This document shows positions 6,021-22,577 of a DNA stretch of 64,000 nt, piece by piece. Where the stretch lies: contig JADGCJ010000004.1 of the NCBI GenBank assembly GCA_015229045.1, forward strand, positions 1 to 64,000, given 5' to 3'. The notes beneath the pieces are model-generated. The model was not told where the DNA came from, searched no databases, and saw only the letters and a list, made by a program, of their open reading frames with translations. This DNA is from Magnetococcales bacterium (lineage in GTDB: Bacteria > Pseudomonadota > Magnetococcia > Magnetococcales > DC0425bin3). The position numbers and the translations under genes are program-made. Numbering within the stretch: position 1 is the first letter of the stretch; the number at the start of each line of letters is the position of its first letter.

Positions 6021-8117
6021 ATGTCGCGTCGCATCCTGGTCACCAGTGCCCTCCCCTATGCCAATGGGCAGATCCATCTCGGTCACCTCGTGGAGTACAT
6101 CCAGACCGATATCTGGGTTCGCTACCACAAGTTGCGCCAGCATGACTGTGCCTACATCTGTGCCGACGATACCCACGGCACACCCATCATGATCCGGGCC
6201 AGACGGGAAGGAATCACCCCCAAGGAATTGATCGCCCGCATGCACGGAGAGCATACGCGCGACTTTGCCGGTTTCGCCATCGGTTTCGACAACTACTACA
6301 GCACGGATTCTGATGAAAATCGCCGTATTTCCAACATGATTTACGAAAAAAACCGCGATGGCGGCCATATGGACCGGCGCATGGTGCGTCAGGCCTATTG
6401 CGAGACCGATGGCATGTTTTTGCCCGACCGCTTTGTGCGCGGCACCTGCCCGTCTTGTGGCGCCCTGGACCAATACGGCGACGCCTGCGAAGTGTGCAGC
6501 AGCACCTATGCCCCCCTGGACCTGAAAGAGTCCCGTTGCGCCCTTTGCGGCGCTCAACCCGTGGAGCGCGAATCGGAGCATATCTTTTTCAAGCTCGCTG
6601 ATTTTGAGACCTTCCTGAAGGAGTGGACCCGCTCCGGGCGCCTGCAAGAAGAGATGGCCAACAAGCTCGATGAGTGGTTCAAAGAGGGGTTGAAGGATTG
6701 GGACATCTCGCGCGATGGCCCCTACTTTGGCTTTGAAATTCCCGATGCACCGGGGAAATATTTTTACGTCTGGCTCGATGCCCCCATCGGTTATATGGCC
6801 TCGACCATGAACTGGTGTCAGCAGGTGGGGCGCAACTTTGCCTCCTACTGGTCAACCGATGCCCATGCCGATGTCTATCATTTCATTGGCAAGGATATTC
6901 TCTATTTTCATACGCTGTTCTGGCCGGCCCTGTTGCAGGGGGCTGGATTTCGCACCCCGACGGCTATCTTTGCCCACGGTTTTCTGACCGTCAACGGCAT
7001 GAAAATGTCCAAGTCGCGGGGCACTTTCATCAACGCCCGGACCTATCTGGCGTTCCTCGATCCGGAGTATCTGCGCTACTACTATGCTGCCAAACTGACC
7101 AGCCGGGTGGATGACATCGACCTGAACTTTGCTGATTTTATCCAGAAGGTCAACAGTGATCTGGTCGGCAAGGTGGTCAACATTGCCTCGCGCACGGCCA
7201 ATTTCATACATAAGGGGTTTGCCGGTCAGCTCTCCATCGACTACCCGGACGATGGTGGCCTGCACGAGCAGTTTGTCCAGGCTGGCGACGAGATTGGTCA
7301 ACACTATGAGACACGCGAGTATGCACGGGCCATGCGGGCCATCATGCGTCTGGCTGAGGAGGCCAATCGCTTCGTCGAAGGCAAGGCCCCCTGGCAAATG
7401 GCCAAGGAGGATGGGCACTCCAAGGCGTTGCAGGACACCTGTACCGTGGCCCTCAACCTGTTTCGTCTCCTGATCATCTACCTGAAGCCGGTGATGCCTT
7501 TGCTGGGCAAAAAAGTCGAGCAGTTTTTCGACGTGACGGAGTTCACCTGGGAGGATCGCAAACGCCCCTGGCATAACCAACAAATCAAGCCGTTCAAGCA
7601 TCTCATGGCACGGGTCGATCCACAGAAGGTCGAGGATCTGCTCAAGGCTGCCAAGGAAGAGGGTGAGGAGTCCCCTCCTCCTGCCGCTGTCTCCATCCCC
7701 TCCTCTCTTGCGATGGCTGCGGCATCATCTCCGGCGCCCACCCTCCCCTCCCCTCCTCCATCGGCATCGGGAACCACGGATCTGGCAGCGGAAATTGCCA
7801 TCGATGATTTCAGCAAGGTGGATCTGCGCATAGCCCGCATCACGACGGCTGAAGAGGTTCCCGGCGCGGACAAACTTCTCAAACTGACCCTGGACCTGGG
7901 CCCTCTGGGAAACCGCACCGTCTTTGCCGGTATCAAATCCGCCTACACCGCCGACTCCTTGCAGGGTCGTCTCACCGTGATGGTGGCCAACCTGAAACCG
8001 CGCAAAATGAAGTTTGGTCTCTCGGAGGGGATGGTTCTGGCGGCTGGACCGGGCGGCACCGAAGTGTTTCTTCTCGCCCCCGACGCCGGTGCCCTGCCAG
8101 GAATGCGCATCAAATAG
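6021..8117 (+). CDS. metG: Methionyl-tRNA synthetase
   Basis: Charges tRNA-Met with methionine in the cytoplasm. The 698-residue protein has the class I signature HLGH near residue 21, the KMSKSRG loop in the catalytic core, and a double CxxC zinc knuckle (CPSCG, CEVC, CALCG) typical of the MetG1 type. A Pro/Ser/Ala-rich linker (about residues 555-590) leads to a C-terminal EMAP-II-like tRNA-binding domain (from [12 protein letters not shown]), which mediates dimerisation and tRNA affinity. Length and order match the E. coli-type enzyme. A tRNA-Glu gene follows about 60 bases downstream on the same strand. Confidence 0.97.
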
Positions 8118-8176
8118 GGATAAAGAGCCTTGCCTTGGCAGAAATCCATCGCCATAATGCCCACTCTTCCTTCTGC

Positions 8177-8252
8177 GTCCCCATCGTCTAGAGGCCTAGG
8201 ACGCCGGCCTCTCACGCCGGTAACAGGGGTTCGAATCCCCTTGGGGACGCCA
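8177..8252 (+). tRNA. tRNA-Glu (anticodon CTC)
   Basis: A complete 76-base cloverleaf. The acceptor stem is GTCCCCA/TGGGGAC, the anticodon stem CCGGC/GCCGG has loop CTCTCAC (anticodon CTC), and the T-loop is GGTTCGAATCC. The CCA end is encoded (8250-8252). The gene borders the left end of the accessory region; tRNA genes are frequent integration sites, but no duplicate of its 3' end was found in the window. Confidence 0.96.
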
Positions 8253-8280: not shown

Positions 8281-11018
8281 TCAAACCGCCCTTCCAGGCG
8301 GTTTTTTTGTGCCTGAAAATCCCAATATTTTCGCCGGAGGGGATTCTGCCGTCCATCGCTGCAATGCGGCGTCAAGTGCGGTACTGGTGTGACTGCGCTT
8401 CTGGGCTACCAAACGCAGCTTTTGCAGCAGCACGCTGCGTTCGTGGGTGCGGCTCTCGGCTTCAATGGCCGCACGGAGTGTTTCCACCAAAGTGTCAATT
8501 TCACTTGCTGACACCGCATTCACAGCAGCATCAATGAACTCGCCCAGATGTCTCTCGCGGAAATAAGGTTCCTTGTAATAGGGAAGAGCCAAAGAACACC
8601 ACATGATGCCGCAGACCATTGCCAGGTTCGGTCGGCGCTTGACCGTACCCAGCAGCAGTGCATCGATCATGTTGGGCCAGCCGATCGTGCTTTTATCCGA
8701 CAAGGCGCGGGCGACCTCGAACCCTGTGCGAGCGTCGTGCAAGGTAGCTTCGGCAATCAGCGGGGATGCAAGTCGGTAGGCGCTGTCTCGGCCCTCGGTC
8801 TCCATCATGCCAGCCACTTGGCGCATCAGAAAGGCAACACGTTTGCCACGCCTAGTTGGATCGGCTGTGTCAGCGCGAACAAGCAGTTTCAACCACGTGT
8901 CATACAGGTAATCTTTTTTTGCTGGACGATCATTGCCAAGGCTCTCTTTGAATACCTGATCGAGAAGGTCACGGGCACGTGTTTGATTGCCTGTTTGCGC
9001 AAAAGCAATCGCCAACATGGCAAGACCATCCACTTGTGCGCCAGGGGTGTCTTCCCGAAGCAATACAACTGATGGTTCGAGCCGACGCGACGCTTCTTTG
9101 GCATCTCCGTTGATCCGGTAGATTGCAGCACAGCCGCGTGATCCTGGGCGCGTGCCAGATAACGCAGTTCAAGCCAACGCTGAGGGGTATCGTTCGGAGC
9201 TGAACGGGCTAGGTTTGCCAACTGGCGATAAATCCTGGCTGAGTAGCCGGCATCCACCTCATCCAGACGGAGATACGGCTTTCTGATGATGTACAACCGA
9301 AAACTGTTATGGAATACGCTCCACCCCTGTGAGCTTTTGACAAGCAGATGTCTGGCGGCCTTCAGAGCGCGTTCGATATCCGGCTCTGGAACTGCCTGGA
9401 CCAGCAACGTCAATGGAATTGGCCCTTCGGCGCGCGCGATGTAATCCAGCACACTGCGTGCCCTGTCGTCATCCTTTATGTCACGCCAAGCCGACTCATA
9501 GATCGTTTCAAGATCACCTTCAAACCTTATGGAGCCACCGAGAATTTCCAGTCGGCGGTTTCCGTCTGCTTCGCGCAATGCCTCGATCAGATAGCGCGCT
9601 ACCAGTGGATGGCCGTGGGACAGTTCGAAGATTTGATCTCGATCAACAGACGTATCAAGATTGAGCAAATCGGCCATTCTGTGGACGGCCTCGCGTTTCA
9701 GGGGCGAGACAACGACCTTCCGACCAGTTGCATCGGCTTGGTCTCGTACCGAGGGCTTCAGATCCTGCAGGTCAAGCCGTTGGGTGCCCAGCACGAACAG
9801 CACCCCGTCAGGAATGGAAGCAGGCAGTGGCAGTTCTGCGAGAAACGAGTGCTGCGGATTCTCTTCACGCGGCACATGATCCAATCCATCAACTACAATG
9901 AGAGTCCTAATCTGATCTTGTTGGTAACGATTTCCGGCCTGTTGAAGCAGGACTGAAAAGTGCTCCCTCCGTTCTGAACTTGTATTATTGCGAAAACGCA
10001 CTCCTTGCAGGCCGGTTTTTTTGAGTTGGGATGCAACATCGTCAAGAAAGTCATCCGCCTCTCCGCGCCCAATCCCCTGGCCTGTTCCAGGGACATAGGC
10101 TAGGTACCGTACCACCCGCAGATTGCTTTCTGTGGCCAAAGAGGTCTGCAAAAGGGTGGACTTTCCCGTGCCAGGCGGTCCGACAAGGGCGATATAGCCG
10201 TTCACAGAATTGCGAATGGCCTGCAACAGAGTCTCCTCGGTCTCGACATTGCGCTGCACATGCGCTCCCACCGGAAAAAAATGACGGTGACGTGAAATGA
10301 AGCTGTCACGCCAACCAAGCGCATTCAGCAACTCTGCTCTGCTCCAGCGATCCTTGTTCCTCGAATCGGCCACCAATTTGGGCAGCAGCTTTGCAATTTC
10401 CTCGGAAAGTCGTGCATCTTCAGGGGATAGCCGATGGAACTGCACAAAATCGGCAGCAGAACCGTACAACAGGCGAAAGCCCAACCAGAACTGCTCGAAG
10501 TCTTGTTCGGCAAGGCCTGAAGATTGACGCAGCTCATCCATAAAGTTCCACCAGCGCGTTGCCCGCCACTCATCAAGTGTACGCCTGGGATGTTGTTCGA
10601 ATTCTGCCAGAAACGCCGCGCTATGATCCGCAGGATTGCTGCCTACCGTGTCATTGATTGACGGGATATCGTTGGTAACAAGATGAATCTCAATCGTCTG
10701 ATTGGGGTGGGCAGATTTCAGGGACTGCCATGCTGCGACAAGTGGTTTGAGCAGGCCATTCTGCCCCATCAGGAGTGTACGCAGCCTAAATGTTTCAGAA
10801 AATTGCGACGTCTTGAACTGATGGCCGACAACTCGGTCTGCGAAGCCGAGCACCACATCATCCGCAATGCCGGCTGTTCGGTCAGCCAGACCAACCCAAA
10901 GCAGCTCATTGCGATCCAGAGCCGCGTAGATCGCTGCGGCTGACGACTCGTATTGGCGGACATAGCCACGCTGGGCACGGCGCTCGCCTTCGCCGGGCGC
11001 AACTCTCACTTCATCCAT
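8281..11018 (-). pseudogene. Cap4-like nuclease / STAND NTPase defence gene, frameshifted
   Basis: Encodes an anti-phage-type sensor/effector in two frames. The first part (11018 down to about 9130) starts with a predicted restriction-like nuclease domain: D53/D54 in GIADDVV and Q67-x-K69 in GHQFKTS. Next comes a STAND-type NTPase with P-loop GPPGTGKST (residues 280-288), Walker B LIVVDGLDHV and the SHGHPLVARYL element, then a helical C-terminus. Near 9128-9132 the frame changes: continuing in the other frame reads AAIYRINGDAKEASRRLEPS and runs as a helical-repeat region to the stop at 8281. The two pieces make one natural protein of about 910 residues, so this is a frameshifted gene or a sequencing error. 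It is the last gene of the minus-strand defence array, 49 bases after AIPR. Confidence 0.8.
8283..8309 (+). terminator. Rho-independent terminator of tRNA-Glu
   Basis: Inverted repeat AACCGCC (8284-8290) and GGCGGTT (8297-8303) followed by a run of T. The stop codon of the last accessory gene on the minus strand (8281-8283) lies at its edge, so the defence gene array ends exactly at the tRNA transcription unit. Confidence 0.85.
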
Positions 11019-11067
11019 GGAGCCTCATAGCAATCTTTCTCCTCCGCACCATTGGACGCATGAATCC

Positions 11068-12861
11068 TCACTGCAACTCCGGGATATCCGTAACTGGCAG
11101 GGAATAGCTGCCCTTTCGCACGGCAACCCAGCACTCAGGCTTCTTGGCCCATTCGGAAATCATTCTGCCCTCTGATGTCTCATGCAGAACCTTGTTGACC
11201 TCTGTCGCCCAGGTTTGAATCTGCTCCTTCAGTCGAGGGGAGATGGCCTGCCTGAGCCAGATTTTTTCAAGATCCATCCGGTTTCCCAGACGGTTTGCCA
11301 AAAGGGAGACTGTATAGGTCGTCACGTTCGCCTGAAAGGCCGGAAACATCGGACGAACCAGTTTCTGGGTATCCTTGTACAGAATCGCCTTGGCAATCAT
11401 CTTTTTGAACTCCGTGACGTCAGGCAGGGAAAGGGGGGTGCCATTTCCGTCAGCACCGTCGATCCGATCCATGAACCTCATGAAGTTCTTTTGTGCCCCG
11501 AAACTCACGGAGTCGGGCAACTGATCCCAGGCATTGATGTACTTTGCCAGATCGGTCTTGATGATTTTTCGTGCTGGCGGAATGGCCTGCCTGAGGTTGC
11601 GCAACTTCGCCGGGGTTGTTCCCTCCCTGGCAAGCATCGTGTTGAAACTTCCGGCCGCCCGCTCGTAAAACCAGCGACCGACCCCATCCGGGCAGTAGGT
11701 CGACATGGCCAGTTTCTCGACCTCGACGTGAAACGGCTTGTTGGCAGAAAGATCAGACTGCCGTACCGAATTCTGGCTGTTGGCGTACTTTGAGATGTCG
11801 GAAATGAGTGTTTCTTCCTTGACCGGATCGTCGGACTTCAGGACGATAACCTTTGCCGGAATCCTGACTTTTCTCAGGTCGAGATCGGGATTCTTCTTTT
11901 TCGTGAAATAGATCGATGCCGTCGTCTGCCCCCCGTTCACGATCTGCATCCCCTTCAGCCAGAGAATTCCTGCTCCGCCATCGGGCGTCTTCCCGAGATG
12001 CAGCTCGTCGGCGATCACGACGATTCCGTTGTTGTAGGCCATGAACCTCTGGGGATCGTCCTTCAGGGTATCCCGTATGCCCCGGTTGATCTTTCCCGTC
12101 ATACTCAGAAACGAACGGACGTTTGCCTCAAGAAGTCTGGCACCATACTTTTCGTACACAAACCGCAACACCTCACCGGGGATGACGGTCAGCGCATAGT
12201 CGTATTCATCCATGTCTCCCGGAATGTAGACGCAGGGAAGCGCCTCCCCGGCCACTTCCTCGAAGTTGACCACGAGTTCATCACGCGGTTTGCCTTCAGA
12301 CCAGTGACGGTGAAGGCGCTCGATATCCATGACCTCAAGCTTTACGGTTTTTCCGCTGACTTCCCTGGTCTTGAAATTCTTGGCCTTGGCCTGACTGTCG
12401 GTCAGAACATAGATCCTGATCTGGTCCAGTTTTGCATAGCACTCCTGGATCGTTAGCGCCAAGGCATAGGCGTCATTCGACTGGTCCATGGTAGTCGCCA
12501 ATCGACCCTGCGCACACTTGGCAAGAAAGCGAAGGCACTGCTCGGCTGCCGTCTTGGTCTGCGTGTCCGAGATGGAGGTGATCTCATCTGCGCCTTCGTA
12601 CAGGCTGACGAACAGATCAAGCTGGTCCGCATCCTCCGAGACGGCGTATCCGCTGAGACGCAGATTGGCGTTTCCGACTTTCGCGGCGTAGTGGCACACC
12701 ACCGGGTCGAACGTCATGCCGATTTCCGACATGTGCTGCATGACCACTTCGGCAAACACCGATTCCGGGTAAGGATAGGCATTGTCGGGTTCACCAAGAC
12801 GGTCGCCAATCTCAGAGCGAACCTCTGCCTGGGTCTGCCGGAGAAAATCCACGAGTTCCAT
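11068..12861 (-). CDS. AIPR family (abortive infection phage resistance) protein
   Basis: A 597-residue protein with the signature of the AIPR family: RSFLSMTGKINRGIRDTL around residue 247, then YNNGIVV and the QIVNGGQTTASIYF segment, followed by a helical C-terminal half. The molecular activity of AIPR proteins is not settled. The family is known from abortive-infection loci and from operons that combine a MORC-like ATPase, a Z1 helicase and a DUF4420 nuclease, exactly the neighbours seen here. Its ATG lies on the last base of the DUF4420 stop codon, so the two are translationally coupled. The frame is intact. Confidence 0.88.
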   Translation of the reverse strand: MELVDFLRQTQAEVRSEIGDRLGEPDNAYPYPESVFAEVVMQHMSEIGMTFDPVVCHYAAKVGNANLRLSGYAVSEDADQLDLFVSLYEGADEITSISDTQTKTAAEQCLRFLAKCAQGRLATTMDQSNDAYALALTIQECYAKLDQIRIYVLTDSQAKAKNFKTREVSGKTVKLEVMDIERLHRHWSEGKPRDELVVNFEEVAGEALPCVYIPGDMDEYDYALTVIPGEVLRFVYEKYGARLLEANVRSFLSMTGKINRGIRDTLKDDPQRFMAYNNGIVVIADELHLGKTPDGGAGILWLKGMQIVNGGQTTASIYFTKKKNPDLDLRKVRIPAKVIVLKSDDPVKEETLISDISKYANSQNSVRQSDLSANKPFHVEVEKLAMSTYCPDGVGRWFYERAAGSFNTMLAREGTTPAKLRNLRQAIPPARKIIKTDLAKYINAWDQLPDSVSFGAQKNFMRFMDRIDGADGNGTPLSLPDVTEFKKMIAKAILYKDTQKLVRPMFPAFQANVTTYTVSLLANRLGNRMDLEKIWLRQAISPRLKEQIQTWATEVNKVLHETSEGRMISEWAKKPECWVAVRKGSYSLPVTDIPELQ

Positions 12862-13883
12862 TATCCAGTTACCTCCAGTGCCTCGAATGCCCGGTCCAGT
12901 ACCATGCCGGGGGTGCCGATCAGATCAAGGTCCAATTCATAGCGGACCTTTCTGATCGCAGTATTGACATTGCCACGGGTCAGTGCGGGAAACTCTTCAT
13001 TGACCAACAGCATTTTTGTTTCGACATGAGAAAAAAGTCGCTTGTACCGGTCCGAAAATGCAGCAAAAAATCCAGCTTTCAGCACAAGGGTTTCGAACCT
13101 TCCTTTTGCTTCTGGAGCACCATCCAGCAAAGACGAAAGACTGGCGACGATTTCAGGCAGGGTCTTGCCCGAACCGTTCAATGCCAGACGGACTCCGGCC
13201 AGAAACAGGGGATGGACAAGCGAGGGATCAAGCTGCTCAAGCGATCCAACGGTCGCCGGGAATCCCTGGGCAGCCACCGTGCTTTTCACTTCGATGGCAC
13301 CTGAGCCAATCAGAAAGTCATGCAGGCCATCAAGCGGTCCCTGCCAGCCGTCCAGAATTGCGGTAGCCGACAACCCCCTTTCCAGAAGCAGCTTCAGAAA
13401 AAAAAGCTCACCAACCAGGCCAACTTCCGCCTCTGGTCCAAGCACCAAGGCCCGGCCCTGGTGCATGAATTCCTGCCAGGCCTCGATCCTGTCGATGAAA
13501 AGCCGAAACAGCATCCGGTCATCGACATGCTCACAGCCCCTCAGCATGCCGATGACATCTTCGGCCATGCGCGAGAACATGTCCAGACTGCCGACTGGTT
13601 GACGTGCAAGGGAGACCCAGACCTTGGCCTGACCTGGTGTTTCATGCCTGACACGTTCGACACGGAACCCGTGCCCCTGAGGGAGTTGGCGATCGGGTGG
13701 GACATGGACTGCATTGAAACCGACCAGGATGGCCTCCTCGTTGCCCGGGAAATGGCGCCCGGCCAGCAGATGAAGAGATCCATGAGGTTCGATCGGGATT
13801 GTTCGCCAACCACCCTGTTCGCTCTCACCGGCAAGGGCACGCCATGCCGATTGCAGCCTTGAGATGTCATTCTGCAGAGCCAT
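12861..13883 (-). CDS. DUF4420-type PD-(D/E)XK nuclease
   Basis: Predicted endonuclease subunit of the MORC/Z1 restriction-like system, 340 residues from the chosen ATG at 13883. Nuclease motifs read, in order, E159 (LVGELFFLK), D189 (GLHDFLIG) and E198-V-K200 (AIEVKST), the usual PD-(D/E)XK arrangement. The frame is open further upstream to 13961, but the ATG at 13883 (MALQNDISRL) gives a compact 17-base overlap with the Z1 gene and fits the family. It is coupled to AIPR downstream. Proteins of this group are probably the DNA-cleaving part; that is family inference. Confidence 0.85.
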   Translation of the reverse strand: MALQNDISRLQSAWRALAGESEQGGWRTIPIEPHGSLHLLAGRHFPGNEEAILVGFNAVHVPPDRQLPQGHGFRVERVRHETPGQAKVWVSLARQPVGSLDMFSRMAEDVIGMLRGCEHVDDRMLFRLFIDRIEAWQEFMHQGRALVLGPEAEVGLVGELFFLKLLLERGLSATAILDGWQGPLDGLHDFLIGSGAIEVKSTVAAQGFPATVGSLEQLDPSLVHPLFLAGVRLALNGSGKTLPEIVASLSSLLDGAPEAKGRFETLVLKAGFFAAFSDRYKRLFSHVETKMLLVNEEFPALTRGNVNTAIRKVRYELDLDLIGTPGMVLDRAFEALEVTG

Positions 13884-16728
13884 ATTCCTGCTCCCAGAGC
13901 ACATTGTTGACCTTGTATTCGACCTTTGTGCCGGAGTTGCTTCCCGGAAAGCTGATGGCAAAGGCGACTACCGGTGGCGTATCCTCCGAAAAGCCCGCCT
14001 CGGCCTCTTTGGGGTCCAGACCGTAAAGAAAAAACAATCCGCGTTCCGGGTGGGCGGCCACGCCCGGCGCACCAAAACCCCTGACTTTTCTGATGGCAGG
14101 TCCGTTCGGTGTGTCCGGCTCGCCGGATTCCTTTCTCCTGCCTGGATCGGCATGCCAGGCAGCCTTGGCCATTTGCAAAGCCGCATTCCAGGCATCCTCA
14201 TCCAGATCAATGGCCTCGTCCCTCGGCGACATGAGTCTGCCGATCGAATACCGATCATCCTGGGTTCCCTTCATCTTGCGTTTCATCGTGTTGAACACGA
14301 TATCATCACGCAGTACCAGGGGAGACCCTTCGCCTCCGCCGATCACGGCCACAGTCCAGCGGGTCAGTTCACCCGTGGCACTCATCGACTGGATGAATTC
14401 CGCCAGTAGCAGGCTGTTGACCTTGTGGGCACCGGGATGCGTCTTGTAGTGTGTCAGAAAATCAACCAGTTCGGATGCAGGGACATCGGTCCACAGGAAA
14501 CTCCCTGACCATTTTTGTCGGCTGCCGTTTCGGATGCGTTCTGGATCAACTTCCGGGCGGCCAAGAGACGCAATCAGGCGTCGTGCGGTCCCCAGGTTGC
14601 GATCAAGCACTTCTTCTGTCCGATACAGCACCACCGTTTCAAGCAACTGCCCACTGAAAGAGAGCATGAGATTTCTTGCCGATCTCATTTTCAATCTTGA
14701 TGTGACCATCAGGACAGAGTGGGACTGCACCTTCAAACCGTATTCTCTCGGAGTGGCACCCGTCGCGGCCATGATATCGAATTCCTCCCGAAGCTCTTCA
14801 GCCGCATCAGTGATGTGGCCGAACCACTCGGAAAGATCGGAGGTCGTATAGAGGCGGCAAAGGTCGAGATAGCCGGGTCTGTACCCGAACCAGCGCCCCA
14901 TCTGCATGAGGGTATCATACATGCGGGATGCGCGGAGAAAATAGCTCACACACAGCCCCTCCAGGGTCAGTCCTCTGGCCAGCTTATCGCCGCCGATCGC
15001 GATTACCTTGAGACCGGCACCCTTGTATTCGGAATAATCCAGGGCATCCTTCGCTGTTCCGTTGATCATTTTGACCTGAATGTCCGACACCACATCAGGC
15101 AAATGAGCGACGACTTCTTCCCAGCCGGGCATTTCTTCAGGCACCAGGTCCGGGTGGATCTTTCCGAGATGACGGGATGTCGGCAGGAAATCCTGATCCC
15201 ACAACGCTTTCAGATTTGCAATCACCTGCTCATGCCCGATCCGGCGGGTAAGCCTCTGACGGAGGTGACGGACCTGCTGTTCGATCTGGAGATGAACATG
15301 CCGCTGAACCGAATTGAAGCGGGTTACATGAACCAGCATCGACGCATGGTCGTTTTCCTGCCCGCGCAGTTTCCGTACCACACATGCAAGCAGGAAGGCG
15401 TCAATGGCCTCACCAAGCGAGGGAGGCAAAGCATCCACGCCATTGAACAGAGGGATGTGTCCATTCTTGTGTCTGGGCGGCATCCAACCGTCGAGGTCGT
15501 TCTCGGCTGCGTGATCGCTGATGCCGCGCACGAGATCAATGCCGCCATCACGCCCATCCTCGCTTTTTTGTCCGAACAACATCGCGGGACCGATATAATT
15601 GGAAGGTGCGGCCAGATTGATGATGAATGCGGACGGGAACAGATCCTGCCCTTCCTCTCGGGTTTCGCCCCTTTCGTGAATGAAGATGTTTGCAAACGGC
15701 GTCGCCGTATATCCCACATAGGCTGATTTGGCGAATGAATGCAGAATGCTCCGAACGAGACGATTGATGGCCGTCGGCTGGTGTTCCTCATCAGGCCTGC
15801 CGTCAGCATTGAAAATCTGCTCTCCTGTATCGACACTGGCGTGGTCCGCCTCGTCATCAATCACGAGCAGGGGGAGGTTGGTGACGACCCTCCGGCCACT
15901 CTCCTGATCATGATGGTCGGCCACATGGTTCCGAATCCATCTGAAAAGCCGCTCAAGAACCGTCTTGTTCTTTTTGACCACGAACAGCCACGGTCTCTGC
16001 TCTGGCGAGATTCCCAGGTTTTTGGCCACGCTCGTGGTAAAGTCGCCATTGTTCGAGCGATTGGTCGCAAAATTGGGGCGGATGCTGGAATCCTTGTCGA
16101 TTTCACCAACGCCGATTATCTGGATGTCGCCCTGGACAGGCCTGGTCTCGTATCCGAGGAAACCCTCGTCCAGGCGCATTTGGGTTTGTGAGCGGAGGTT
16201 GTTGTGAAGACCGGCGAGCACAATCACGATCTTGTATCCGGCATCTGCGGCCTTGCAGATGAGTCCCGTGTAATGCCCGGTCTTTCCGGACTGCACATGT
16301 CCCACCACAAGACCTCGCCGGTCCCACACGCCTGCACGCAGAGGATCTTCCAGCAGACCAAGTACCGTATCCGTAGACTGATCCAGGCCATCGATCGCCT
16401 TGAAGGAAAGTGTGCGTTCCAACCACTCGCTGTATCGCTGCCAGTACCGCCACTCCCGCTTCCGCGATGCAACGAGCCAAGCCTCATGCCCATCATTGCT
16501 TGTGAGCATTGTATCCTGGCCAATCCAAAGACTGAACCGGCGGATCAACTCGTCTGTCACGTAATCCCTGTTGAGACCCTCGCCCCACCTTGGGTTCATT
16601 TTCAGCACCATATCCATCTTCTCCGCAATGACAGCGGGAGTGATTGACGACCTGTCCACTTCGTCAAGCAGGAGTTCCTGGACAAACTTGACCACCTTTT
16701 GCTGGATATCCGTGGACTTGCCATTCAT
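13867..16728 (-). CDS. Z1-domain superfamily II helicase
   Basis: A 953-residue helicase-like ATPase. Walker A GHVQSGKT is at residues 143-150, the DEAD-type Walker B LLVIDDEADH is near residue 293, and a YTATPFANIF motif III segment follows. The Z1 domain has the characteristic IGGDKLARGLTLEG and QMGRWFGYR (motif VI) near residues 620-660. It is expected to move along or remodel DNA and couple recognition to cleavage. The start overlaps the end of the GHKL ATPase gene by 4 bases and the end overlaps the nuclease gene by 17, so all are translated as one operon. Intact. Confidence 0.92.
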   Translation of the reverse strand: MNGKSTDIQQKVVKFVQELLLDEVDRSSITPAVIAEKMDMVLKMNPRWGEGLNRDYVTDELIRRFSLWIGQDTMLTSNDGHEAWLVASRKREWRYWQRYSEWLERTLSFKAIDGLDQSTDTVLGLLEDPLRAGVWDRRGLVVGHVQSGKTGHYTGLICKAADAGYKIVIVLAGLHNNLRSQTQMRLDEGFLGYETRPVQGDIQIIGVGEIDKDSSIRPNFATNRSNNGDFTTSVAKNLGISPEQRPWLFVVKKNKTVLERLFRWIRNHVADHHDQESGRRVVTNLPLLVIDDEADHASVDTGEQIFNADGRPDEEHQPTAINRLVRSILHSFAKSAYVGYTATPFANIFIHERGETREEGQDLFPSAFIINLAAPSNYIGPAMLFGQKSEDGRDGGIDLVRGISDHAAENDLDGWMPPRHKNGHIPLFNGVDALPPSLGEAIDAFLLACVVRKLRGQENDHASMLVHVTRFNSVQRHVHLQIEQQVRHLRQRLTRRIGHEQVIANLKALWDQDFLPTSRHLGKIHPDLVPEEMPGWEEVVAHLPDVVSDIQVKMINGTAKDALDYSEYKGAGLKVIAIGGDKLARGLTLEGLCVSYFLRASRMYDTLMQMGRWFGYRPGYLDLCRLYTTSDLSEWFGHITDAAEELREEFDIMAATGATPREYGLKVQSHSVLMVTSRLKMRSARNLMLSFSGQLLETVVLYRTEEVLDRNLGTARRLIASLGRPEVDPERIRNGSRQKWSGSFLWTDVPASELVDFLTHYKTHPGAHKVNSLLLAEFIQSMSATGELTRWTVAVIGGGEGSPLVLRDDIVFNTMKRKMKGTQDDRYSIGRLMSPRDEAIDLDEDAWNAALQMAKAAWHADPGRRKESGEPDTPNGPAIRKVRGFGAPGVAAHPERGLFFLYGLDPKEAEAGFSEDTPPVVAFAISFPGSNSGTKVEYKVNNVLWEQEYGSAE

Positions 16729-18251
16729 GGTCGCACCTCTTCGGCGGTTGATGTCTCGTCCGGCAGTGCGGCCACGAGATCCGGATAATTCTGAAAGGGT
16801 TCCGTATGAAGAAGGCGTTCCCTGGCCAATGCGGGACTCAATCCCTTCCTGGCAACCATATTCTGGAACATGACATCCAGGATGGCCTTGACTTCACTGG
16901 GCGGATCTCCGGCAAACCCGGTGCGAGGTGTTTCCCGACACTCGGTGGTATCAAGCCAGATTCTCTGCACAGGGATCGTTTCCTCAAGTATGCGCAGCAT
17001 GGTCTTGATCTGAGGCAGCAACGTGCCCGCTTCTTCGAGAACCGTTCTGACTGCAGGATGTGCAGGATCAATCCGGTACCGCATGCCACCCTGGAAATGT
17101 TCTGCTTGCCACACCTCCACAATCGGCTGTTTGTCGCCAAGACGAATTGTCTTGCCCCGGTGCGCAAAGACGCGCCGGGCGCGGGATCGGGTATCCTCGG
17201 CAAGCCGGATCAATTCCGGACGAACCTGGACGGGGGGTCTTGCAATCGATTTGCGAATATCGATTTTCCAATCCGCATCAGCGGAGTTGGGGATGTCCAA
17301 TCTGATCCGTGCCAAACGGTGCGCTTCCTCCTTGGTCCAGGAACGCCCCGATCCCAGACCCAGCCAGCTTCCAGCCACCAGAAGTCGCCGGTTGCGATAC
17401 ACATAAAAACCCTGTTGCGCGGTCCAGCCATCCGGGCCGGCGGCAACTTCGTGTTCATTCTGGCTTAAACGATCCTTGTGCGGAAGGACGTGGCCCTGCA
17501 CCTCGACCTTCCCGCCGGGTGTTTTCAGAAGGACCAGTGGTGATGTCCATGTCGCTGGATGGCGGGAGAGAAATGGATCCCATGGCGCCATGGGTCTGCC
17601 GTTCAGGCGGATCTGCAACCCGGGATTCTGTCCTTCCAGGTAGCGGTGAAAGACCATCGCCAAGTGATGTTCGACGGAATCGACAAGGTCAAGAAAATTC
17701 TGCTCCGAAAAGCCGGGAGCGACAATGCGATCAAGCCGCTCCCACAGGACCATCGTTCCCGCTTCGGCAGTCGCAAGAGGGGCCAGGAGTGCGCGGGAGG
17801 TCTCAGCCGGTCCCTCAAGCAAATGCCATCCATCATCGGCACTCGCGGCCAGGAAATCCAGATCCCAGCACAGGCAGACAGAATTCCCGCCCTTCTTTTT
17901 GCTGGCGACCGTCAGACACCGGCATTGCGAAAAGGATGCGGTCTTCAAACCGATGCCGAAGCGTCCCAGGTCGGTTGCAGTCCTGCTGTCGAGAGGACTT
18001 TTTTCGCCAAGACGCATGGCCCGGTCCAATTCGCCATCGTCCATGCCGCCACCATCATCCAGAATCAAAATACGGCTGTCTGGCCCTCTCCAGTCGAACC
18101 TCAGATCAACCGTTCGCGCACCTGCGGCAATGCTGTTGTCTATGATGTCGGCAATCGCTGTTGCAGTGGAGTAGCCAAGCCCCCTCAGAGCCTCAATCAT
18201 TGCGCAAGCTTTTGGAGGGGCATGTCGTGAATTCCTGCTGACTTCTGTCAT
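16725..18251 (-). CDS. GHKL (HSP90/MORC-like) ATPase
   Basis: Cytoplasmic ATPase of 508 residues from the MORC-related branch found in restriction-like operons. The N-box is IADIIDNSIAAGA (residues 33-45, Asp in the catalytic acid position), the G1 box DDGGGM (65-70) and the G2 box LGRFGIGLKTASFSQC (95-110). A transducer-like domain and a C-terminal region rich in basic and aromatic residues follow. It likely acts as an ATP-driven clamp. It overlaps Z1 by 4 bases and begins 9 bases after the sigma-factor half gene. A decayed relative of its N-terminal domain is encoded upstream at 20508-20897. Confidence 0.9.
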   Translation of the reverse strand: MTEVSRNSRHAPPKACAMIEALRGLGYSTATAIADIIDNSIAAGARTVDLRFDWRGPDSRILILDDGGGMDDGELDRAMRLGEKSPLDSRTATDLGRFGIGLKTASFSQCRCLTVASKKKGGNSVCLCWDLDFLAASADDGWHLLEGPAETSRALLAPLATAEAGTMVLWERLDRIVAPGFSEQNFLDLVDSVEHHLAMVFHRYLEGQNPGLQIRLNGRPMAPWDPFLSRHPATWTSPLVLLKTPGGKVEVQGHVLPHKDRLSQNEHEVAAGPDGWTAQQGFYVYRNRRLLVAGSWLGLGSGRSWTKEEAHRLARIRLDIPNSADADWKIDIRKSIARPPVQVRPELIRLAEDTRSRARRVFAHRGKTIRLGDKQPIVEVWQAEHFQGGMRYRIDPAHPAVRTVLEEAGTLLPQIKTMLRILEETIPVQRIWLDTTECRETPRTGFAGDPPSEVKAILDVMFQNMVARKGLSPALARERLLHTEPFQNYPDLVAALPDETSTAEEVRP

Positions 18252-18260
18252 GAATATACC

Positions 18261-19157
18261 TCAGGATTCCAAATAACTGCGCATTTTTCGGGAAATGCCG
18301 GGGTGTCGCAACCGGCGCAGAGCCTTGGCTTCAATCTGGCGAACGCGTTCGCGGGTCAAGTTAATCTTCTGGCCAACATCTTCCAAGGTATGAGCAAGGT
18401 GCATATTAATTCCAAAGCGCATCAATAGCACCTTCTTCTGTTGCTGTGACAATGTATTTAAAATTCTGATTGTAACCATGTGTGAATTTTTTCGGATCAG
18501 CATATCCAATGCAGAGAGTATTGTCCCGTTTTCAATGAATTGTTCCAGACAGATTTGTTCGTCTTCACTTGTCAAACACTCCAGAGACACCATTTCTTCA
18601 GTTAAAAAGTTATGAACCCGGTGCACTTTCCCCAAAGGCATCTCCATACGTTCAGCAATTTCTTCCGGTCTCGGCTCTCGTCCCATTTCCTGGGCCAGTA
18701 ATTGGCTGATCTGCTTATATCTGTTAATGGTTTCAATCATATGTACCGGAATACGAATGATGCGTGCTTGATCTGCTATTGCTCTTGTAATGGCTTGCCG
18801 GATCCACCAAACCGCATAGGTCGAAAATTTCGCACCATGTGCCGGGTCAAATCGATCAACTGCCTTGAGCAGACCGATATTACCTTCCTGGACCAAATCC
18901 ATATACGGCAGCCCATGATGCTTGCTTGCGATCCACAGAACCAGTCTGACATTGTACTCAAAAAATTGTTTCTTTGCTGCCTGCACGCGACTGAGACCTT
19001 GAGCCAGAATTTCACGTGCTGTACTGCCCTGACTGTCCTGCTCTACAGTTCTCCAAATCCGATCCACGAACCCATTCGAAAGGCCAAGTGCCAGTATTTC
19101 GTCTCTCAACCTGTCGGCAACAGCCTCCCTCTCGACGATTGATCTAGCTTTGTTCAT
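18261..19157 (-). CDS. Sigma-70 factor C-terminal half (regions 2, 3 and 4)
   Basis: A 298-residue RpoD-like polypeptide from the ATG at 19157. Region 2 is clear: EYNVRLVLWIASKHHG, then DLVQEGNIGLLKAVDRFDP and FSTYAVWWIRQAITRA. Region 3 follows, and region 4 ends with a DVGQKINLTRERVRQIEAKA helix-turn-helix. Its ATG overlaps the stop of the preceding gene as ATGA. The overlap lies in a run of seven A, where a -1 slip would join both halves into one protein. It would direct RNA polymerase to specific promoters, possibly those of the island itself. It is less well conserved than housekeeping RpoD. The neighbours are the MORC/Z1 operon 9 bases downstream and the ankyrin/sigma N-half upstream. 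Confidence 0.88.
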   Translation of the reverse strand: MNKARSIVEREAVADRLRDEILALGLSNGFVDRIWRTVEQDSQGSTAREILAQGLSRVQAAKKQFFEYNVRLVLWIASKHHGLPYMDLVQEGNIGLLKAVDRFDPAHGAKFSTYAVWWIRQAITRAIADQARIIRIPVHMIETINRYKQISQLLAQEMGREPRPEEIAERMEMPLGKVHRVHNFLTEEMVSLECLTSEDEQICLEQFIENGTILSALDMLIRKNSHMVTIRILNTLSQQQKKVLLMRFGINMHLAHTLEDVGQKINLTRERVRQIEAKALRRLRHPGISRKMRSYLES

Positions 19158-20508
19158 TTTTTTGTGTGAAGGGTGCGAATGATTGCTGTCCTGTTCGCAA
19201 ATCCGGATGAGATGTCTGGTGAAAATGGGAAGCTCGGATGGAGGGCATCCTCGCTGCATTCATCGTCTGCAGCATTCTGTCTTTCTTCATCTTCATCAAG
19301 GATATCACCTTGCCAACCCTGCTCATGCACTTCACTTTCTGCGATATCGTCATATCCAAGCATCAACCGGATTGAAATATCCCCCTGTTTTGCTCGATCA
19401 AACCAATCAAGGAGTTCAGCCATTGCAGCAGGTGATCGTGGAATTGCACTGAAGGCCGCTTTTGTGCCATCAGATATTTCATGAGCCAGTTCAATCTCTT
19501 CCTCTCTTGAGAGGATTTTTTTTTGGCCGATGTCTTTAAGATATTGACTTTGGGGATCATTGATGCCGGACTGAAGATCAGAAAAAAACACAATAGCTTC
19601 GTCTACCACGGAATCATCCCTGTTCTCGAAGAATTCGTTCTCCTCGACTGTTTCTGCTGGTGGCAGGGAAGGTGCAAAAAGGTCAGGAGCATTTTCCACC
19701 AGAATGCTCAGGTCTCCCAGGACAACCCGGAGTGCATTCAAGAATTCGACATCCGGCGATTCCTGATTCTCGGCATCCACAGGCACTGCATCAACCAGTT
19801 GTTTTTCAGTAACCCATCCGTTGTGAATCCCGACCAGAATCAGGTTTCTGGCTGCAGTTTGCCATGCTGCATCCTTTTCCGACCATCTTCGTCTCCTGGA
19901 GGCAAACAGTTCCGGCAAATCTATGTCAATATCAGACCAGTCCGCGTCGGTATCGACCGGGATGTGACGGGAAATCCGCTTCTGGATCTCTCCGGCAATT
20001 GCAAGGCAGAAGGGATCACCTGAGGGCGTGGGCGACTCTGTTTGTTCCTCCCACACCGAGAGATCGAAATCATCCCCGTCAAAAGAGACATTTGAAAGTT
20101 CGTCATCAGAAAAAGTGCCGTCTGCTGGTGCAGTCGAATGGTCAGGCACCATGAAATCCGCAATCGTGGCCTCCTCCACAGTCGGTTCATCCCGTGCAGG
20201 CAGATGATGCAACTTCAGAATGGACTCAACCTCGCCATGACCTTTCTGGACCGCTGCCGAAAGCGCATCATTCCCGTCATCATCCTGAAAGGCAGGATCA
20301 GCACCAGCCTCCAGCAAAACCCGGCAGACCTCGGTGTGTCCCTTTTCGGCAGCGCCAGAATGAGCGGGGTCTTTCCCTTGCCATCCGTGGCGTTGACGTC
20401 GGCTCCGCGCTGCAGGTAAAACATGACGGTTGCCTTCACCCCCGTGATGGCGGCCATCTTGAACAACAGCGGCAGGGTGTTCCTTGATGATGAGGGCTGT
20501 CTGCTCAT
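19154..20508 (-). pseudogene. Ankyrin-repeat / sigma-70 N-terminal half, with one frameshift
   Basis: Starts at the ATG at 20508 (MSRQPSSSRNTL), which overlaps the previous stop as TGATG. Two to three ankyrin repeats come first (YLQRGADVNATDGKGKTPL, then GHTEVCRVLLEAGADPAFQD), followed by an acidic stretch. The C-terminal part has sigma-70 region 1.2 (YLKDIGQKKILSREEEIELA) and RpoD-type non-conserved region (LLDWFDRAKQGDISIRLMLG). The ankyrin part changes frame at about 20352-20356, where a GC pair seems duplicated: removing it restores the canonical TPLILAAEKGH. Region 2 onward is in the next gene. So this is an ankyrin-fused sigma factor that is split and partly broken, or miscalled at two indels. 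Confidence 0.75.
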
Positions 20509-20897
20509 CAAATCCACGCCTTCAGGATGCACGACTTGATAAAATGGAGGAGGATCGGAAGGAAGGGCATGCACTGGTGGATCCTGGCCATGTCAAAGCC
20601 GAGGTCGAAACGTCCCAGGCCCGAAGCCGACCGTTGGTCAAGAGGAGTAATCCATCCAGACCACTCGGCGTTGACCGGTTCTCCGCAATCCAGGCTCTGT
20701 TCGTCGTTCAGCAGCGTGATGACGGAATCACGACCATTCCATGGACTCCGGATTTGCAGCATGGATGCATTGGCGGATATGCTGTTGCCGATCTGATTGG
20801 CAATGGCAGTGGGCATGAGAGATCCTCCTCCCCTGAGTGATTCCTTCAGGACGGATGCAGGAGAGGAAACCAGATCAAACCCGGGTTGATCGTTCAT
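20508..20897 (-). CDS. Degenerate GHKL ATPase N-domain fragment
   Basis: A 129-residue protein from the ATG at 20897, which has ribosome site AGGTGG. It aligns along its length with the N-terminal ATPase domain of the GHKL protein at 16725-18251: LKESLRGGGSLMPTAIANQI corresponds to the N-box helix, the DDGGGM box is replaced by NDEQSL, and ASGLGRFDLGFDMARIHQC replaces the glycine-rich G2 box. ATP-binding residues are therefore lost. It is truncated before any transducer domain and its stop overlaps the ankyrin-sigma ATG. It may be a decayed duplicate, or a small partner that kept only the fold. The frame extends to 20936 in the divergent promoter region. Confidence 0.7.
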   Translation of the reverse strand: MNDQPGFDLVSSPASVLKESLRGGGSLMPTAIANQIGNSISANASMLQIRSPWNGRDSVITLLNDEQSLDCGEPVNAEWSGWITPLDQRSASGLGRFDLGFDMARIHQCMPFLPILLHFIKSCILKAWI

Positions 20898-21046
20898 GAA
20901 AAACCACCTAAACAACACACAATGATTCATCGACATTAATGATTACAATACAATGTGCCGATCACATCGGTCAAACGTTGTCCTCCGCAACGACCACGGA
21001 TGACCTGTCATCACCCACAATCAGACGGCGTCACAAGGGGGACATC

Positions 21047-21487
21047 ATGTCGCCCGAAAAACGAAGTGCCGTGATGTCGCGGATTCGTGGCAAGTATACA
21101 GGAATCGAAGAGATTGTTGCAGGTTTGCTTTTCGAAGCAGGCATGGAATTTGATCGGCATGCCAGTGATCTGCCGGGTCGTCCTGATTTCGTATTCAGGG
21201 AGGCCAGAATGGTTGTTTTTGTCGATGGGGATTTCTGGCACGGATGGCGTTTCCCCCTTTGGCAGGACAAGTTGTCTGAGAAGTGGGAAGCAAAAATTAG
21301 CGCAACCAGAAAACGTGATCAGCGGAATCACCGAAAATTGAGGCGCATGGGATGGAAAGTTGTGCGGTTATGGGAACATCAAATCGAAAAGGATTCAGCC
21401 ATGTGCATCAAAAAAGTGCTGCTTGTCATCTCTGGATGTCTTTCCGGCCAGAGGGGCAATCCAGTACAACGTGATGATGCGACATGA
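21047..21487 (+). CDS. vsr: Vsr-type very-short-patch mismatch endonuclease
   Basis: A 146-residue nicking enzyme of the Vsr family, which repairs T:G mismatches formed when 5-methylcytosine deaminates. Family motifs: MSPEKRSAVMSRIRGKYT at the start, then ASDLPGRPDFVF (the catalytic Asp region) and VVFVDGDFWHGW. The usual FVHGCFWH is FVDGDFWH here, so a histidine and the zinc-binding cysteine are absent. The start at 21047 follows AAGGGGG; an open extension to 20939 is less likely. It lies 28 bases upstream of a cytosine methyltransferase, the normal partner, and diverges from the MORC/Z1 operon. Confidence 0.9.
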   Translation: MSPEKRSAVMSRIRGKYTGIEEIVAGLLFEAGMEFDRHASDLPGRPDFVFREARMVVFVDGDFWHGWRFPLWQDKLSEKWEAKISATRKRDQRNHRKLRRMGWKVVRLWEHQIEKDSAMCIKKVLLVISGCLSGQRGNPVQRDDAT

Positions 21488-21515: not shown

Positions 21516-22577
21516 ATGATGCCAGACATGAACATTCGAGTGCTTGATCTATTCTGTGGTGGTGGGGGAAGCAGCTGGGGCGCGCACAAGGCGGGTGCCA
21601 GGATTGTGTGCGGCGTTGACGCATGGGATGTCGCCATCAAGACTTACCAGGACAATTTCCCAGAGGCAAAAGCTGTCCAGGAGCGTCTGACGCCTGATTT
21701 CAATCCTGCACAACTCGGTGATCTTAGCCGGATTGACATGATCCTGGCATCCCCTGAATGCACCAGCCATACCTGCGCCAGAGGCAAGCGGGAACGTTGC
21801 GATGACAGTCGGAACACGGCCTTTCTGGTGCTGAAATTTATCGATCATTTTGAACCGCGATGGGTGGTCATAGAAAATGTTGTCCACATGAAACAGTGGG
21901 AAAGATACGATGAATTCATCACCGAACTGCGCAAACGGGGATTCAAGATCAAGGAGCAAACTCATGACGCTGCATGGTTTGGCGTGCCTCAAAACCGGCG
22001 GCGTCTTTTTATCGTCTGCGACCGAAATGGCGATATCCCTGCAATCACTCCGGCTGAAGGGACAATAAAACTGACGGCGGGAGACATCCTGGACACTTGC
22101 AGAACCTGGAAATGTGGCCCTCTTGACAATGGAAAGCGTGCCCTCCCGACCCTTGAGCGGGCACGACGGGCCATCGATGCACTGGGGAAAGGCAAACCGT
22201 TTCTGATTGTTTATTATGGCAGCGACGCAGCTGGGGGGTGGCAACCACTGGATCGTCCCATCAGGACACTGACCACCCTGGATCGCTTCGGATTGGTGGA
22301 ATGGTACAATAACATCCCGACACTGAGAATGCTGCAGGTACCCGAGTTGCGCCGGGCCATGGGGTTCTCTGACGATTTTCGGATGCAGCAGGGCTGCCGG
22401 AGGGATCAAATCAAGGTGCTTGGGAACGGTGTTTGTCCGCCGGTCATGACGTCAATTGTCAGGCAGATCACCTCATCGTTCCGAGACACACTGATTGTCC
22501 CGCGATCGATTGCACGCCATGCCATCCCTGAATTTGCAAACAGTTGTGAAATCAACTCGTTGATGTCAATGCCATAA
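21516..22577 (+). CDS. DNA (cytosine-5-)-methyltransferase
   Basis: A 353-residue C5 methyltransferase. Motif I is LDLFCGGGGSSWG, motif IV is ASPECTSHT with catalytic cysteine (SPEC instead of the common PCQ), motif VI is IENV, motif VIII QNRRRLFIV and motif X LGNGVCPPV. The target-recognition region between VIII and IX is short. It probably modifies the host DNA that the MORC/Z1/DUF4420 genes would otherwise attack, with Vsr repairing the resulting deamination products; this pairing follows from the context and family knowledge. The start may be 21516 or the in-frame ATG at 21528; neither has a strong ribosome site. Confidence 0.93.
   Translation: MMPDMNIRVLDLFCGGGGSSWGAHKAGARIVCGVDAWDVAIKTYQDNFPEAKAVQERLTPDFNPAQLGDLSRIDMILASPECTSHTCARGKRERCDDSRNTAFLVLKFIDHFEPRWVVIENVVHMKQWERYDEFITELRKRGFKIKEQTHDAAWFGVPQNRRRLFIVCDRNGDIPAITPAEGTIKLTAGDILDTCRTWKCGPLDNGKRALPTLERARRAIDALGKGKPFLIVYYGSDAAGGWQPLDRPIRTLTTLDRFGLVEWYNNIPTLRMLQVPELRRAMGFSDDFRMQQGCRRDQIKVLGNGVCPPVMTSIVRQITSSFRDTLIVPRSIARHAIPEFANSCEINSLMSMP

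Follow-up and report, generated by a model that had tools for sequence, protein, structure and literature searches.

The ankyrin-fused sigma-70 gene in a 64,000-nucleotide stretch of Magnetococcales DNA (contig JADGCJ010000004.1, positions 1 to 64,000; hereafter the window) is, we consider quite likely, a mosaic mzaA whose frame is broken twice, within a Mza-type operon that is otherwise intact (Table 1). A diverged allele has taken the place of the sigma core, and the two frame breaks leave ordinary decoding with no full-length MzaA to produce. The split itself is probably damage, yet it points to a general pattern, that of a fast-diverging, patchwork ankyrin-RpoD sigma subunit in Mza.

Table 1. 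Features of the mzaA region in the window, with the evidence for each.
Feature	Position	Strand	Evidence
mzaA: ankyrin, region 1.1-like, region 1.2, NCR and regions 2-4, with two breaks	18261..20577	-	PADLOC, NCBIfam NF041931, G001 synteny
mzaA 5' piece, open frame with first ankyrin repeats	20215..20574	-	Pfam Ank_4 6.8e-5
First frame break, within ankyrin repeats	20352..20353	-	Alignment to G001:C108, net two-base difference
Frame 1: remaining ankyrin, linker, region 1.1-like, region 1.2, start of NCR	19154..20317	-	
A7 run (T7 on + strand), second frame break	19157..19163	-	Net two-base difference from G001
Frame 2: sigma regions 2, 3 and 4; ATG at 19163	18261..19259	-	Pfam
Diverged, AT-richer segment with most of the sigma core, probable recombination import	18200..19640	.	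Boundaries approximate
mzaB, MORC/MutL-like GHKL ATPase, intact	16725..18251	-	PADLOC 690 bits; NCBIfam 830 of 850
mzaD, PD-(D/E)XK protein, intact	12861..13961	-	PADLOC 175 bits; NCBIfam 378 of 420
mzaE, AIPR protein, intact	11068..12861	-	PADLOC 836 bits; NCBIfam 1041 of 1050
Degenerate copy of MzaB N-terminus upstream of mzaA (apparent relic)	20508..20936	-	tblastn
Vsr-type endonuclease, divergent neighbour	20939..21487	+	Pfam Vsr 3.7e-23
C5-cytosine DNA methyltransferase, divergent neighbour	21516..22577	+	Pfam DNA_methylase 2.6e-37

PADLOC matched MzaA to MzaE in order (PDLC02203-02207), with mzaA preceding the MORC-like mzaB, which bears out an earlier note on this DNA that had placed a sigma factor in an operon with a MORC gene. 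Both sigma pieces match the PADLOC MzaA model (5e-52 and 6.5e-5), and MzaC scores 1338 bits. In NCBIfam, MzaB-E, the first sigma piece and the intact MzaA of a syntenic genome (G001) all have a Mza model as their best match, while for the second sigma piece the MzaA model ranks fourth, after three RpoD models. The equivalog cut-offs of this collection (NF041931-NF041935) are reached by none of the window MzaA-E: against a cut-off of 800 for MzaA, the two window pieces score 274 and 114 and the intact G001 copy 473, and MzaC scores 1390 against 1500. The MzaB cut-off was passed in 0/399 and 0/369 genomes of other groups, and is therefore strict. As judged from these model matches, the operon is a Mza-type anti-phage operon, divergent from the reference lineage, and its two frame breaks deprive it of the full-length MzaA expected of a Mza system.

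The same five genes occur at a plasmid locus of Thalassospira marina, where mzaE is so named in the record, and in a Neorhizobium locus dcm-vsr-REase stands ahead of mzaA, the window likewise having a methylase and Vsr nearby. Vsr matches were found in 11 of 15 Mza loci, Vsr and a cytosine methylase being recurrent partners of Mza operons. The degenerate MzaB copy upstream of mzaA, about 43% identical to the MzaB N-terminus and 87% identical to the corresponding G001 copy, is open in the window and in G001 and interrupted in G016; its GHKL motifs are damaged as judged by eye, so that it looks like a relic. Adjoining the operon, a STAND/AAA ATPase gene with an Avs1b-like PADLOC match (8889-11018, minus strand) seems to run on in another frame as ORF 8281-9063, which has a weak TPR-like match; 8281-11018 on the minus strand is possibly a second frame-broken defence gene. 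A 1,284-aa ORF at 31978-35832 on the plus strand contains, by eye, several tandem units of roughly 70 residues, which resemble helicase-associated domains.

All of regions 1.2, 2, 3 and 4 are recognized by Pfam in the window sigma gene, spread over two frames: region 1.2 (3.8e-8), together with a weak NCR match, in frame 1 (19154-20317), and regions 2 (4.7e-19), 3 (4e-14) and 4 (3.4e-15) in frame 2. Frame 1 ends at a TGA immediately 3' of the A7 run, and regions 2-4 resume in the other frame. The overlap of stop and ATG at this run that the earlier note had described is present in the sequence. Its division of the domains stands for region 1.2 and NCR in one frame and regions 2-4 in the next, but not for the ankyrin part, since the first repeats lie in a third frame (20215-20574) that loses ankyrin homology at 20352. 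As listed, frame 1 has a TTG start partway through an ankyrin repeat, and frame 2 is also open 5' of 19163, as far as an ATG at 19259. The shared promoter motifs that the same note had proposed to look for were sought in 18200-21100, and none rose above chance. It speaks against decay that both large frames run without a stop, for 387 codons in frame 1 and 300 in frame 2, so any decay must be recent; the window mzaA is best read as a recently frame-broken and probably inactive gene.

The syntenic mzaA in G001 is a single 771-aa frame (L001:70-2385), encoding a protein in which Pfam finds regions 1.2, 2, 3 and 4, region 1.2 marginally (21.7 of 22 bits). A further protein labelled Magnetococcales, P0010, is 76% identical to residues 1-480 of this MzaA, with 90% coverage. 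Window and G001 DNA are 94.9% identical over 14,976 aligned columns (~15 kb). The alignment has 19 gap columns, every one within 18258-20353, a single base (18258) lying outside the gene. A net change of frame occurs at just two places, 19157-19158 and 20352-20353, of two bases each, the remaining gaps in mzaA being multiples of three or cancelled nearby. The loss of one base in the homopolymer, which the earlier note had also offered, is disfavoured by the residue spacing in near relatives, and was set aside.

Between about 18200 and 19640, identity to G001 measured in 75-base steps is 53-92%, against 92-100% in the flanking DNA, with one separate dip (85-88%) at 20550-20700. Synonymous divergence (dS) from G001 is 0.86-1.04 in the sigma core, compared with 0.05 in mzaB and 0.08 in the first 190 codons of frame 1. 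The GC content of the core is 46%, that of the 5' part of mzaA 54.6% and that of mzaB 57.6%; the Vsr gene is itself rather low in GC (49.7%), so GC alone is no proof of import. Identity, GC and dS together show that a diverged allele has replaced the sigma core, with import as the simplest account; one of the breaks lies within the putative import and one outside it. The dN/dS of the core relative to G001 (0.17-0.19) suggests that it was previously a working sigma core. When the read-through protein was used as a query, the nearest protein to the core was that of G001, at 58% over residues 310-560, which suggests an unsampled donor; among the best 80 of at least 595 matching stretches in genome contigs, no relative of the sigma core exceeded 48% identity.

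An assembly or sequencing error, under which the mzaA of this strain would be an ordinary intact fused gene, is the main rival but appears improbable. Each break is a net two-base difference, and the one in the ankyrin repeats is not in a homopolymer; the rest of the 15-kb alignment is gap-free in spite of three further runs of at least seven bases outside mzaA; and the adjoining mzaB-E are intact. The window as a whole contains 39 homopolymer runs of at least seven bases, three of them within mzaA. What speaks for an error is that the other break does sit in a homopolymer, that mzaA is intact in every relative read at the DNA level (see below), that the protein database has the window sequence just once, as P0001, an entry with one member from one contig, and that a second window gene (8281-11018) may be frame-broken too.

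To place the split among relatives, we considered, in addition to the window, 24 loci that carry a MzaB-like gene: those of G001 and G016, four on plasmids (from 34 plasmid records in which MzaB was matched), and those of two genome surveys, comprising all 5 of 369 genomes matching at E 1e-60 and all 14 of 399 at 1e-150, with G246 in both. These MzaB thresholds tilt the sample towards true Mza loci. MzaA is present at 20 of the 24 loci and, with the DNA checked, forms a single open frame free of internal stops in 20/20, which answers the earlier note's question of whether homologues are fused or split. Pfam regions 2 and 4 were matched in all 20 MzaAs and an ankyrin match was obtained in 19, so the ankyrin part is a general feature of MzaA rather than a peculiarity of the window. 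At the remaining four loci (L152, L162, L163 and L164), the stretches analysed gave no match to MzaA; the last three of these are more distant, with MzaB 35-37% identical. In L152, mzaB-E homologues of an Azospirillum plasmid lie at 8944-16493, with a 603-aa ORF upstream at 6444-8252.

These relatives bear on the possibility that the window encodes a true two-part sigma factor of the SigO-RsoA kind, as the earlier note had suggested, or that regions 2-4 are made alone, by reinitiation at the ATGA, as a freed sigma. Regions 2-4 are intact, with the motifs for contact with RNA polymerase and promoter, the ATG overlaps the stop, and other truncated MzaA-like proteins stop in the NCR, two of them (P0005 and P0033) at the same place. 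A split sigma would be expected to have its own starts and to be kept split in relatives; neither was found. No Shine-Dalgarno match of at least five bases precedes the frame 2 ATG, the best being one 4-base match at -36, none of the 20 DNA-checked loci is split, and the N-terminal partner carries a break of its own in the ankyrin repeats. The ATG, moreover, falls on an internal column that often holds Met: among 32 intact MzaAs, this column has Met in 16, Leu in 9, Ile in 3, Thr in 1, Gly in 1 and a gap in 2, with inserted residues at the spot in 1/32. Gaps 3' of the column in 15 of the 18 rows beyond the first 14 indicate that the stretch as a whole is variable. From this alignment we infer that the ATGA overlap would be a by-product of a frame break beside an internal Met codon.

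The position of the break within the predicted protein argues in the same direction. An AlphaFold2 model of the G001 MzaA, built from 31 sequences (mean pLDDT 68.8, pTM 0.36), predicts an ankyrin domain with confidence (residues 31-120, approximately) and disorder over 407-452. In G001 numbering the second break is placed at residues 469 and 472 by two alignments, a third stopping early, at 406; it thus maps within a predicted helix (457-475), outside the disordered stretch. Taken together, a two-part sigma is very unlikely here.

Among 237 sampled proteins, from searches whose length windows bias the list of truncated proteins, 70 carry a DW-D-LP signature, the window protein P0001 among them; 61 of these have a region 2.4 and/or a region 4.2 motif, and nine, including that of the window, have neither. 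P0028 is an additional truncated protein, without the signature by the pattern used. Truncated MzaA-like proteins end mostly in the NCR. In G001 numbering, homology ends at 467 in P0002, at 473 in P0004 (two of three alignments, 495 in one), at 394-410 in P0003, 377-380 in P0027, 407-412 in P0028 and 398-412 in P0089, and at 528 in P0005 and P0033 and 541 in P0072 (2.2-kb contig); the ends of the window protein, P0002 and P0004 lie within about 7 residues of one another. Some of these may be contig ends, as P0072, P0005 and P0089 are on 2-3 kb contigs. P0005 and P0033, which comprise ankyrin to region 1.2 and are separate entries in a database clustered at 90%, have a common end point and the same odd tail, and so possibly represent an old split that has been kept; a functional or stable split may possibly exist in some lineages.

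Programmed -1 slippage on A AAA AAA is exceedingly unlikely to join the frames. The junction, ACA AAA AAA TGA, presents a slippery heptamer in the required zero-frame phase and, as the earlier note had seen, a -1 shift there enters frame 2, but the upstream ankyrin break would still bar the full product. The A run is not present in the G001 DNA at the junction position, there is no upstream Shine-Dalgarno sequence, and the 80 bases downstream fold no better than shuffled sequences (z 0.18, for pseudoknot-free folds). Slippage and the two-part sigma were accordingly rejected as main readings, on the fused relatives, the lack of a Shine-Dalgarno sequence or fold, and the location in a helix. Phase variation, in which the A run and a short repeat would toggle mzaA on and off, is likewise extremely improbable, since contingency tracts are usually longer than A7, G001 does not share the run and the second break lies elsewhere. 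Its supporting evidence is that the ends of other truncated MzaA-like proteins lie mostly in the NCR and that one survey gives a SNP plus indel density in mzaA above expectation across biomes (PMC10924106).

Our preferred reading, a broken mosaic mzaA, fits into a wider variability of this subunit. Across 17 five-gene loci, MzaA is the least identical of the five subunits in 135 of 136 pairs, which are not independent, the median pairwise identities being 30.1 for A, 59.4 for B, 56.2 for C, 42.4 for D and 61.2 for E. Conservation across 31 MzaAs is lowest in the NCR, where pairwise identity averages 29.7% and 15% of cells are gaps, and nearly as low in the post-ankyrin linker (30.1%), against 55% in region 4, 58% in the ankyrin part and 64% in region 2. 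Three of five further locus pairs that were profiled show a patchy mzaA. In L258/L259, identity is about 50-81% in the ankyrin-to-NCR half, about 83-96% from region 2.2 to the end of mzaA and 91-99% beyond, and the DNA upstream is unrelated, which places a homology boundary inside or at the start of mzaA. In L268/L269 the ankyrin part, also next to unrelated upstream DNA, is 37-59% identical, and in L263/L265 identity falls to 58-79% towards the 3' end of mzaA. L151/L153 shows no such patch in mzaA, and L259/L260 is diverged across the whole gene. In the survey cited above, mzaA belongs to the genes whose SNP plus indel density is high whatever the environment, with positive selection in its PF04546 domain (NCR) (PMC10924106), findings that the pattern of exchange in mzaA extends.

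Intact MzaA has all the parts of an RpoD-type sigma factor (region 1.1-like, 1.2, NCR and 2-4), preceded by an N-terminal ankyrin domain. The motifs DLVQEGN, AVWWIRQAITR and TRERVRQIEAK of window frame 2 correspond to DL.QEGN, WWIRQ and RER.RQIE, which vary little or not at all among the MzaAs of two alignments (31 and 20 sequences). We take the first to be the clamp-helix motif contacting core RNA polymerase and the other two to serve -10 and -35 recognition, respectively. With the polymerase and promoter contact motifs kept, MzaA most likely forms a holoenzyme, as judged from its sequence. G001 has a separate, ordinary RpoD-like gene (L002, 667 aa). The ankyrin domain and NCR may sense or regulate, coupling RNA polymerase to the MzaB-E effector machinery. 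In defence, MzaA may provide the operon with transcription of its own, or it may act as a guard that detects phage takeover of sigma70. Without a full-length MzaA, the window operon is probably off, or else MzaB-E act without A, as the A-less operons elsewhere would suggest; the existence of such B-E-like operons means that A may serve in regulation or sensing. The fast divergence and patchwork of this ankyrin-RpoD fusion likewise make it a candidate specificity or sensor subunit.

More tentatively, and with considerable doubt, MzaA may be an RNA-polymerase-docked immune receptor with exchanged modules. Ankyrin, NCR and at times core modules would be swapped between alleles, like the target-recognition domains of HsdS, and the sigma subunit would determine the phage to which the MzaB-E effectors respond; NCR breaks would be an off or turnover state in an arms race, with a few lineages keeping a stable split. 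With MzaB as the query, no relative was found in viral contigs, three phage records had a MzaB match, and none of the best 80 of 482 matches of the MzaA alignment to viral contigs began before residue 219, the ankyrin part being lacking. No published account of the mechanism of MzaA was found among the literature matches listed, and why an anti-phage system has its own sigma factor is now a directly testable question.

The Mza system (MzaABCDE), reportedly first described by Gao et al. in 2020, agrees with the window operon in its five genes and their order, with a sigma-70 factor as MzaA; the window differs in its frame-broken, mosaic mzaA and in NCBIfam scores below the cut-offs throughout. 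In another publication, mzaA is termed a sigma factor and the Mza system validated (PMC9523054). Intact MzaA has the motifs DL.QEGN, WWIRQ and RER.RQIE in common with E. coli RpoD, and the G001 protein matches E. coli sigma70 (PDB 3iyd chain F) in two stretches, from the region 1.1-like part to the NCR and over regions 2-4; it differs in the ankyrin domain in front and in a hypervariable NCR. Bacillus SigO-RsoA is a split sigma factor, and the window likewise has sigma determinants in adjacent frames, but its relatives are fused, separate initiation signals are lacking and the N-terminal piece is itself broken. Iyer et al. (2008) describe clusters of a MORC ATPase, superfamily II helicase, cytosine methylase and Vsr endonuclease (PMC2292703); the words "sigma" and "ankyrin" have no occurrence in the main text of that paper, whereas the window mzaA has both.
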